From: a virus
Virus record (IMG/VR): IMGVR_UViG_3300026488_000012
Span: 1 to 64,000 of that record
Reading direction: 5' to 3' (one strand)
Length of the DNA stretch: 64,000 nt
The notes under the pieces were generated by a model. The model saw only the letters and a list, made by a program, of their open reading frames with translations, was not told the origin of the DNA and made no database searches. Shown here piece after piece: positions 1 to 63,609 of this stretch. Each line of letters begins with the position of its first letter. Position 1 is the first letter of the stretch. The translations under genes were made by a program, and so were the position numbers.

Positions 1-117
1 CCTCTCTACCAAGTACTGCTCCTCTGGTGTGAAGGAGAAGGTCGAGACTAACCCCGGTGGTATAAGGGGAGTCAGAAGACCTTCTCGACGAAGAGGAGAC
101 GTGGAACGGTAGAGAGG
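1..117 (+). ncRNA. Structured leader RNA, copy A
   Basis: One extended hairpin of four helices. P1 pairs 1-10 with 108-117 (perfect 10 bp), P2 pairs 19-25 with 92-98, P3 pairs 35-43 with 78-86, and P4 pairs 46-49 with 70-73 and 52-55 with 66-69 around a 2-nt AA bulge, closed by a 10-nt loop. The internal loop next to P1 has AGTA on one side and GGAA on the other, the pattern of a bulged-G (loop E) motif. The second loop has GTGTGAAG opposite GACGA, and the third has AGAA on its 3' side. Copies B and C have the same fold with compensating changes. It ends 4-5 nt before the ribosome binding site of the next gene and no U-run follows, so a translational or mRNA-stability role is more likely than attenuation (inference). 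P1 may extend beyond the window edge. Confidence 0.85.
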
Positions 118-3082: not shown

Positions 3083-3108
3083 TTATATATAGTTAAACTG
3101 TAACAAAA
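3083..3108 (+). promoter_or_regulatory. Early-type (class I) promoter candidate
   Basis: TATATATAGTTAAACTGTAA followed by CAAAA matches the variants at 4507, 30758 and 62590 (TATATAT-n-CTAAAnTGYAA). It ends seven bases before helix P1 of leader RNA B, so the transcript would start almost at that helix. Confidence 0.6.
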
Positions 3109-3114
3109 TAAAAA

Positions 3115-3231
3115 ACCTCCCTGTCAAGTACTGCTCTCCCGGAGAAGGAGGAGACTAAGACTCATCCCGTTGTTAGTAGGGAAGTTAGAAAGTCTCCTCG
3201 ACGAAGGAGAGATGTGGAAAGACAGGGAGGT
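3115..3231 (+). ncRNA. Structured leader RNA, copy B
   Basis: Same architecture as copy A. P1 pairs 3115-3125 with 3221-3231 (11 bp), P2 pairs 3134-3139 with 3206-3211, P3 pairs 3148-3156 with 3191-3199, and P4 pairs 3159-3162 with 3183-3186 and 3165-3168 with 3179-3182 around a 2-nt bulge, with a 10-nt terminal loop. Conserved loop segments are AAGTACTG (3126-3133) facing GTGGAAA, and GACGA (3200-3204). P1 and P3 differ in sequence from copy A at several positions, but every pair is kept. The 3' arm of P1 contains AGGGAGG, itself like a ribosome binding site and hidden in the helix; the functional AAGGAG follows five bases later. Confidence 0.85.
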
Positions 3232-3246
3232 ATATAAGGAGAAAAT

Positions 3247-4014
3247 ATGGAAAAAATAAAAGAAACTTATTTAAGAGTTTTCAAAGAAGTAGCAGATAAA
3301 AACGCTACTTTAGATTTCTTTAAGGGAGGACTTACAAACGACTACTTCACAAGTCATGAATATGATAGTTATTTTGCGGGAGAACAAAAACTGCAAAATA
3401 ACTATCAATTGTTTTCACGTATTATTTTGGAAAATGATAAGGAGGCTATTAATTTATTTTATGGTTACTTTATATCTCCTTTTGCCAAAAAGGATCTTAG
3501 TATATTCAGAATTGGATATTACTTTTATAAGAACAAATGTCTTCCTAAAGTTACAATTGAAAAAATTAATTTACTTCTATTAGAGAGGCTCGAAAATGAA
3601 TTCGAGAAATTTCAATTTGATATTATAAAGGAAATGGTTCAGAGAAAGGGGTACTTGAATTTTACAGTGGTAGAAGAAAAGATAAAGCTTAAGAATGAAA
3701 GGAGAAGATTATTCGAAGAGAATATTCCTTTTAAAGAAATTAATTATAATTATAGTAGGGGTATAGTTAATTATATCTTTGAAGGTGAGAAATGTCTTTA
3801 TAATCTGGGAGACTATAAAGGCATTCTAATAAACCACAAACTTACGGACCTTGAAGTAATTCCTGCTCTATCTAGCAGGGCGGGATTTTTTAAGAAGAAC
3901 GGCGAGTTATATTACTACGCCGGGTATGGTCGTGAAGAAAGAATAGGGGAATGTCTCTACTATGATGTAAACCGTAATGGGGATGCAATAATACTAAAAA
4001 GGAGAAAAAAATGA
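3247..4014 (+). CDS. Unknown early protein behind leader RNA B
   Basis: A 255-residue, Lys/Glu/Tyr-rich protein with no family I recognise. No signal peptide or membrane segment. The first two-thirds are helical and charged; the last third has short beta-like segments with Gly (YNLGDYKGILINHKL, YYYAGYGREERIGECLYYD). The stop overlaps the start of the following gene (ATGA), so the two are translationally coupled as one operon under one early-type promoter and leader RNA B. Function unknown. Confidence 0.8.
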   Translation: MEKIKETYLRVFKEVADKNATLDFFKGGLTNDYFTSHEYDSYFAGEQKLQNNYQLFSRIILENDKEAINLFYGYFISPFAKKDLSIFRIGYYFYKNKCLPKVTIEKINLLLLERLENEFEKFQFDIIKEMVQRKGYLNFTVVEEKIKLKNERRRLFEENIPFKEINYNYSRGIVNYIFEGEKCLYNLGDYKGILINHKLTDLEVIPALSSRAGFFKKNGELYYYAGYGREERIGECLYYDVNRNGDAIILKRRKK

Positions 4015-4472
4015 ACAAAATATATAAACTAAATGACGTTGTTTTCGTCGTAGTAAACGAGAATGAATTAGGCGTTATGATAAATAACGATATATATCCG
4101 TTAAGAGACAAAAAGGACGCTATTCTTCTAGCGTCTATAATAGGAAAAGAGACTAAAGAGGACTCAATATTTACCTCAATACGTCTCGAAAGGTTAGTAA
4201 GCAGATATATAAACTCTATATATAGCGATATATATAGAGCCTACGATTTTTTACAATTAAACTATGGGCATCTATACAAGGATACCTTCAAAATAGCGAG
4301 AGCACGTTACTGCGCTCTTTGCCACTGTAAGGGGTATTCCCCGGTCATTTACTACGAGGGGAACTGTAGTCATAATACAGAGTTCTGCGACGAAGACGTC
4401 GCGCTGTGTATAAAGAAAGGTTTTGTAAAGAAGTTTAAAAGAATCTTAAAGGAAAGAGGGTTTTTGAAATAA
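4011..4472 (+). CDS. Unknown protein with Cys-rich, possible zinc site
   Basis: A 153-residue protein overlapping its upstream neighbour by four bases (ATGA). The N-terminal half is helical. Around residues 103-135 it has CALCHC followed by GNCSH, FCDED and ALC, a Cys/His cluster that could bind zinc, though the spacing matches no zinc-finger family I can name. The C-terminus is basic (KKGFVKKFKRILKERG), so nucleic-acid binding is possible (inference). It shares promoter and leader RNA B with the 3247 gene. Confidence 0.75.
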   Translation: MNKIYKLNDVVFVVVNENELGVMINNDIYPLRDKKDAILLASIIGKETKEDSIFTSIRLERLVSRYINSIYSDIYRAYDFLQLNYGHLYKDTFKIARARYCALCHCKGYSPVIYYEGNCSHNTEFCDEDVALCIKKGFVKKFKRILKERGFLK

Positions 4473-4500
4473 TCCTCTTTCCATTTGTATTTCTATTTTT
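4451..4500 (+). terminator. Terminator of the 3247-4472 operon
   Basis: GGAAAGAGG (4451-4459) pairs with CCTCTTTCC (4474-4482) across the stop codon; T-rich sequence follows. Confidence 0.75.
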
Positions 4501-4506
4501 TTTATT

Positions 4507-4531
4507 TATATATAGCTAAAGTGCAACAAAA
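4507..4531 (+). promoter_or_regulatory. Early-type (class I) promoter candidate
   Basis: TATATATAGCTAAAGTGCAA then CAAAA. Nearly identical to the motifs before leader RNAs B and C, but followed here by a plain 5' leader without the structured RNA. Confidence 0.6.
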
Positions 4532-62589: not shown

Positions 62590-62614
62590 TATATATCGCT
62601 AAGATGTAATAAAA
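62590..62614 (+). promoter_or_regulatory. Early-type (class I) promoter candidate before leader RNA C
   Basis: TATATATCGCTAAGATGTAA then TAAAA; same variant as 3083-3108 and 4507-4531. It ends about nine bases before helix P1. Confidence 0.6.
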
Positions 62615-62622
62615 CCGCAAGT

Positions 62623-62740
62623 CCTATCTGTCTAGTACTTATCTCCTGGTGTGGAAGGGGGAAGACACGACTAACCCCGTTGTCATATAGGGGGTCAGAA
62701 GTCTTCCCTGACGAAGGAGATTTAAGGAACGACAGATAGG
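62623..62740 (+). ncRNA. Structured leader RNA, copy C
   Basis: Same fold as A and B: P1 62623-62632 with 62731-62740 (10 bp, perfect), P2 62641-62647 with 62715-62721, P3 62659-62666 with 62701-62708, and P4 62669-62672 with 62693-62696 plus 62675-62677 with 62690-62692 around an AA bulge. Loop elements TAGTACTT facing AAGGAAC, GGTGTGGAAG facing TGACGA, and AGAA (62697-62700) are conserved. Relative to A, P1 differs at four pairs, all compensated. It ends eight bases before the AAGGAG of the MYG1-like gene. Confidence 0.85.
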
Positions 62741-62760
62741 CGGGCTACAAGGAGTCAGAA

Positions 62761-63609
62761 ATGACACAAATGAGTAGAGTAAATAAAATCGGAACACATA
62801 ATGGTGTTTTTCATGCAGACGAAATCACTGCAATTGCAGTGATTAAAATATTTACAGGTTCAAATCCTGAAATAATAAGAACCAGAGACAAAGACGTTCT
62901 TAACAATATCCTCCAAGAAGGAGGGATACTGATTGATGTTGGTGGTGAATATAACTTTGAGAAAGGGATATTCGACCATCACCATAGTAAGAATGGAGTA
63001 AATAACATGGCATCTGCTGGTATTATTGCAGATGCTCTGGGCATTACTGAAGAGAAATACCCATTATTGGTCTCATTAATCAGGGAAGTAGATGCTCAGG
63101 ACCTAGGCATTAAAAGAAATCCTGAGCATCACTTTTCAAATATAGTTAAATCGTTTAATGGATTAGCAGATAATCCATCTAATAACGATGATGCTTTTGA
63201 GAAAGCATTAGAGTTTGCAGTTAATTATATAACCACCCTTAAAAAACAAGACGAGCTAAACTTATTCTACAAAAAAGAAGTAGAAGAAACAGTAATAAAG
63301 GAAATAAACGGAATTAAGGTCGCAGTTCGTAGGAAAGATGATAAGTTTGTCCCAGCTGTAGAATTCACTGGAGAAGCCGATTTAGTACTAAGTTGGGACA
63401 AGCAACAGAACTGTTGGAGTCTCCAGGCAGTACCTCTAACCAAAGGAGACTTTAAAAGTAAATACAAAATTGTAAGTGCAGATAATCCGGTTTTCATCCA
63501 CCCGGCTGGATTCATTGCTAAAATAAAAGATACGGGCGAAGGTATCAAGTTTGAAGTTAAAGATGGAGATAGTAACAAAACCATCACCATCCCATATCCG
63601 GGAGGATAA
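62761..63609 (+). CDS. MYG1-like DHH-type exonuclease
   Basis: A 282-residue protein of the MYG1 (UPF0160) family, which shares the DHH phosphoesterase fold; the eukaryotic member is a 3'-5' RNA exonuclease. Visible signatures: GTHNGVFHADE (11-21) with metal ligands; IIRTRD; ILIDVGGEYN (57-65); FDHHHSKN (71-78); SLIREVDAQDLG; and a C-terminal substrate-binding-like region (LVLSWDKQQNCWSLQAVPL, FIHPAGFIAKIKDTGEG). Length fits bacterial members. In a phage it may trim RNA or degrade a nucleotide signal; both are inference. It is preceded by leader RNA C and an early-type promoter, so it is made early and under special 5' control. SD AAGGAG. Confidence 0.8.
   Translation: MTQMSRVNKIGTHNGVFHADEITAIAVIKIFTGSNPEIIRTRDKDVLNNILQEGGILIDVGGEYNFEKGIFDHHHSKNGVNNMASAGIIADALGITEEKYPLLVSLIREVDAQDLGIKRNPEHHFSNIVKSFNGLADNPSNNDDAFEKALEFAVNYITTLKKQDELNLFYKKEVEETVIKEINGIKVAVRRKDDKFVPAVEFTGEADLVLSWDKQQNCWSLQAVPLTKGDFKSKYKIVSADNPVFIHPAGFIAKIKDTGEGIKFEVKDGDSNKTITIPYPGG

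Follow-up and report, generated by a model that had tools for sequence, protein, structure and literature searches.

Early mRNAs of phage T7 carry RNase III hairpins between their genes, and phage 5′ stabilisers are stable irregular hairpins upstream of early ribosome sites. The HK022 put antitermination RNA forms two hairpins close behind an early phage promoter, while ribosomal-protein leaders such as L10_leader (RF00557) fold into a long irregular hairpin with a possible kink-turn. The early promoter mapped in the Bacillus jumbo phage AR9 has the form AAATATATATTAT-N6-G, and the same study describes a motif in early 5′ UTRs with a suggestion of translational control (PMC5312081). In nucleus-forming phages, early mRNA is made inside a vesicle and has to reach the ribosomes from there (PMC12908238).

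Here, we analysed a 64,000-nt stretch of viral DNA (the window; positions 1 to 64,000 of the 179,975-b record IMGVR_UViG_3300026488_000012, ~180 kb), for which an earlier note had described a structured RNA in front of three early genes. This element is similar to the T7 RNase III hairpins in being a stable irregular hairpin just upstream of early ribosome sites; however, it is longer (117 nt) and contains conserved loop-E-like and kink-turn-like loops. It resembles L10_leader in that the leader forms a long irregular hairpin and may contain a kink-turn, but its genes are unrelated to ribosomes, and the L10_leader model hits the element only at chance level (14.8 bits against a cut-off of 44, antisense). 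The early promoter architecture is the same as that of AR9 (TATATATTAT-N6-G; PMC5312081), whereas the AR9 early leaders that we extracted are mostly short and AU-rich, without a comparable repeated fold.

Copies and predicted structure of the element

To find all copies of the element, we built a covariance model (R1) from the three copies in the window and searched the whole 179,975-b record. Copies A (1 to 117), B (3116 to 3230), and C (62623 to 62740) scored 139, 129.9, and 128.5 bits, respectively, bearing out the claim that three genes in the window carry the element. This whole-genome search, which the earlier note had proposed as a check, also recovered two full copies outside the window, namely D (124328-124444 of the record), which is identical in sequence to A, and E (142672-142787; 109 bits, E value 2.4e-21), together with a truncated copy at the contig end. 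Copy E was thus detected by a model that had not been trained on it. A second covariance model that included E (R2) yielded no copy beyond these, leaving five full copies in the record. All lie on the plus strand, sense to their own genes, and the distinct copies are 66-84% identical to one another. The element had been described as much more GC-rich than its surroundings; its GC content is 47-55%, compared with 30.5% for the genome.

Copy A is predicted to fold into one long irregular hairpin with a minimum free energy of -57.7 kcal/mol, compared with -36.8 +/- 3.5 kcal/mol for shuffled sequences (z -6.0); the corresponding z values for B and C are -5.7 and -4.4. The single hairpin of the earlier note therefore stands, though its helix count of four does not, as we count five: P1 (1-10/108-117), P2 (19-25/92-98), P3 (35-43/78-86), P4 (46-49/70-73), and P5 (52-55/66-69), all in copy A coordinates and assigned from the predicted fold and pair counts. 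RNAalifold, when supplied with no structure, yields the same helices. The P1 arms are exactly complementary in A, B, and C, as had been stated, and the compensatory changes reported for the helices are readily seen: across these three copies, 98% of pair cells hold standard pairs, and 14 of the 35 pairs changed on both sides, against a shuffled mean of 4.5 (none of 500 shuffles reached 14). Sliding the 3′ partner by 1-3 nt lowered pairing from 98% to 40-54%. With E added, both sides changed in 15 of 35 pairs; these counts come from four distinct sequences, all paralogues of one genome. We also considered a coding function for the element and rejected it, as most frames contain stops and the indels between copies are 1-3 nt long.

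The internal loops are conserved as well. In copy A, the AGUAC strand (12 to 16) of a loop-E-like, bulged-G internal loop faces GGAA (103-106) and is invariant in all copies, as is the AGAA bulge between P4 and P3 (74 to 77); the earlier note had listed both segments as conserved. Compared with the loop E motif at the sequence level, AGUA and GAA are invariant among the copies. The middle internal loop, in which GG(UGU)GAAG (26 to 34) faces GACGA (87-91), had been described as conserved GTGTGAAG facing GACGA; the GG, GAAG, and GACGAAG segments are invariant, but the full GTGTGAAG is not, since B and E read GGA-GAAG. A kink-turn pattern, consisting of a 3-nt bulge followed by G.A and A.G pairs, fits B and E, while the bulge is longer in A and C; the middle loop of B and E may therefore be kink-turn-compatible. 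With the apical loop excluded, 24 of 35 unpaired columns are invariant compared with 33 of 70 paired columns (p = 0.03), a modest gap. A rod that merely stabilises the message would not need invariant loops, which makes specific recognition or a defined three-dimensional fold the more likely explanation of this conservation pattern. Outside the rod, copies C (62611-62622 with 62741-62745) and E resemble each other upstream of P1, where the stretch ends in AAGT, and also downstream of P1, where a segment is rich in G, which suggests that these two copies have a short extra helix outside P1 and that A and B are without one.

Early promoters, ribosome sites, and downstream genes

All five copies sit between an early promoter of the phiKZ/AR9 type and a Shine-Dalgarno (SD) sequence, in line with the placement directly upstream of early-gene ribosome sites given in the earlier note. 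The upstream motif resembles TATATATTACTAAA-N-TG(T/C)AA(C/T)AAAA and contains TATATATTA(C/T)-N6-G. Copies A and D match the motif canonically, whereas those of B (3084 to 3108) and C (62590 to 62614) deviate at TTAC; the box of E is canonical, but the base at its expected start is an A. Because the AR9 start rule places initiation at the G of this motif (PMC5312081), transcription of A-D would start 16-17 nt before P1, for example at G3100 for B and G62606 for C; the corresponding base of E lies ~26 nt before P1. On the other side of the element, the SD sequence AAGGAG (122 to 127 for gene A, 3236 to 3241 for gene B, and 62749 to 62754 for gene C) follows P1 by 4, 5, 8, and 9 nt in A, B, C, and E, respectively. 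In all copies, any pairing of the SD is local and involves bases that follow the element, not the element itself, and no terminator or alternative hairpin was found after P1 in any copy.

We compared these leaders with those of other early genes that have the same promoter type. In about 20 further genes, 15-55 nt separate the motif from the start codon. Of the 29 leaders called in a looser promoter search (one site being covered by two overlapping calls), the five copies of the element alone are both longer than 70 nt and folded far below their shuffles (z -3.3 to -6.8). An upstream ORF (ATGTGGAAA), small and present in B and E, was considered and rejected because A and C lack it.

The five downstream gene products share no common theme and are otherwise unrelated. 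Gene A (128 to 544; 138 aa, with the ATG at 134 the more likely start) is followed by a hairpin resembling an intrinsic terminator (511-520/544-553) with a T run. Gene B (3247 to 4014; 255 aa) has a weak DUF249 match, and its unit runs to a terminator at 4451-4482, after which a new early promoter begins at 4507. Family matching gave nothing above the cut-off for genes A, B, D, and E. Gene C (62761 to 63609; 282 aa) belongs to the MYG1/UPF0160 exonuclease family (PF03690, 1.6e-25; PDB MYG1 exonuclease, 2e-10); this phage thus encodes a protein of a DHH-type exonuclease family, and its relatives have orthologues of it. For the 728-aa product of the gene behind E (142809-144995 of the record), the only matches are to Microcystis phage proteins, at ~36% identity within residues 528-687.

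Phage identity and distribution of the element

Judging from its proteins, the source is a chimallivirus-like (nucleus-forming jumbo) phage, because the window encodes a relative of chimallin (phrog_4795, 1.2e-21) and multisubunit RNA polymerase proteins (phrogs at 8.7e-159 and 7.9e-259); the elements would therefore be leaders of early mRNAs. The RNA polymerase is only ~36% identical to those of named phages. We retrieved relatives from IMG/VR via alignment queries, and the nearest fully read ones, G001 and G003, have ~95 genes in common with this phage at a mean identity of 37%. The gene C orthologues in both have the same type of early promoter without the element.

A family spread among other jumbo phages, which the earlier note had entertained, has not been borne out so far. 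R1 found no match in 12 characterised jumbo phages (AR9 included), in 66 IMG/VR relatives searched over their entire records (a set from which near-identical records may be missing), or in 79 regions surrounding the RNA polymerase gene, and R2 found none in the nearest nine relatives. Large sets were searched under stricter filters. DNA-pattern scans of viral_contigs gave one GC-rich chance match, 42 chance matches, and none in a further scan, and those of genome_contigs gave 12, again by chance only. None of these one, 42, and 12 matches scored with the covariance model. Similarly, blastn gave only weak partial matches to Gordonia phages (E 0.03) or nothing among phages, and nothing among plasmids. 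A search of Rfam 15 with permissive thresholds returned nothing near the gathering threshold for any copy, which upholds the view that no Rfam-type RNA matches, and searches of open papers gave no account of such a leader in jumbo phages. The element is not a core function, since it is absent from all relatives examined; it appears, on sequence comparison, to be a new RNA family of its own within the known kind of structured mRNA leaders.

Other early leaders in the relatives are structured too. Some early leaders of G001 and G003 begin with hairpins of unrelated sequence (z -3.6 and -1.8); among them are the predicted chimallin leaders (starting at 130359 in G001 and 52033 in G003), whose 5′-terminal hairpins are strong. 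Such leaders would be consistent with a more general requirement for structure at the 5′ end of early mRNA. A single strongly folding 134-nt early leader of G001 (~140490-140624, minus strand; -46 kcal/mol) is unlike the element. By eye, the MYG1 homologues in the related contigs L186 and L187 have a different-looking long leader with apparent hairpins, which lies behind an early-type promoter upstream of 3001.

The ends of the record (window position 1 and record positions 179910-179975) overlap by 64 nt and break inside the element. The first 64 nt of the window recur at the contig end, where they are preceded by 60 nt that match the sequence before D. Given the truncated copy, the end overlap, and the match to D, the window edge inside copy A is a break that stems from assembly or circularisation; probably the record is circular or was broken at the 187-nt repeat in common with copy D. 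If the end is joined to the start, A and D have 187 identical nt in common, spanning the tail of the upstream terminator, the promoter, the leader, and the SD.

Possible roles of the leader

Our working interpretation, held with slightly less than even confidence, is that some early mRNAs of this chimallivirus-like phage carry the element as a structured 5′ leader that acts in cis, through recognition of its loops and common post-transcriptional treatment. On this reading, the leader would be specific to the lineage, be recognised by a protein, and coordinate, tag, or protect a small early regulon. The virion RNA polymerase would initiate ~16 nt upstream of the element, the leader would fold into a single rigid rod (P1-P5), and a phage or host protein would read the loop-E-like and kink-turn-like loops, such that five unrelated early messages would be marked for common treatment. 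This treatment would most likely be protection from decay together with efficient loading of ribosomes onto the SD, which is left open next to P1. As the earlier note proposed, the element may control translation or protect the 5′ end. New early genes could gain this control through a copied promoter-leader-SD cassette, as in A and D. We found no homologue of L7Ae or RNase III in the phage as an obvious partner. A bolder and improbable version is that of an address tag on early mRNA, in which a phage protein would read the loops so that chosen virion-polymerase transcripts are exported, retained, or selectively translated. It concerns transcripts leaving the early infection vesicle and, if true, would make the element the first RNA signal of this type known from a phage. 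A conserved RNA fold on a few early messages offers a handle on the sorting, protection, and translation of early transcripts, and promoter-leader cassettes are here seen copied to new genes.

It is possible, though rather unlikely, that the element is a generic 5′ stabiliser or an RNase III processing hairpin, for which only the double-stranded rod matters and no dedicated reader of the loops exists. A very stable rod does adjoin the SD, and this explanation is kept alive by G001 and G003, where some early leaders, that of chimallin included, begin with sequence-unrelated hairpins. However, the core loops are more conserved than the stems, and the ~16 nt expected to be unpaired before P1, unlike a classical 5′-terminal hairpin, weaken the model of protection by such a hairpin. 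A ligand- or protein-operated ON/OFF switch (a riboswitch or an autogenous repressor site) with one state in which the SD is masked would suit the 5′ UTR position, and the 5′ strand of P2 (CUCC) could pair with the SD in place of P2′; even so, we consider it a poor candidate. The SD lies outside the fold in the ground state, opening P1-P2 would cost most of ~50 kcal/mol, and the downstream genes are unrelated. That the fold does not sequester the SD argues against a simple translational OFF-switch, and together with the missing terminator after P1 it favours a positive or protective role, as far as the predicted fold can indicate.

Two further explanations are each quite doubtful. In an antitermination RNA like HK022 put, the nascent leader would bind the transcribing RNA polymerase so that terminators are read through, and the element, like put, is a structured RNA close behind an early phage promoter, the first such structure in several units. 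The units it leads are nevertheless short, with the terminator-like hairpin directly after gene A and the terminated unit of gene B followed by its fresh promoter, and the element is one rod rather than two hairpins, probably transcribed by a phage and not a host RNA polymerase. Were the leader instead cut free to act in trans, decoying a host protein or RNA, its several copies on early transcripts and unusually elaborate fold would make sense, but an SD follows every copy after 4-9 nt, a placement that speaks for a role in cis. By far the hardest to sustain is a copied promoter cassette with incidental RNA structure. The 187 nt common to A and D would suit it, as would another promoter-leader cassette repeated elsewhere in the record, but compensatory changes keep the helices across copies that are only 66-84% identical, and this covariation is strongly opposed to incidental structure. 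The other cassette (GTTATCTTACTAAAATGCAATAAAACTACAAGATTAGGAGGTAAATATG) is identical at three genes outside the window (record positions 113412, 121977, and 126156), and its copy at 126156 precedes an RNA polymerase subunit gene.
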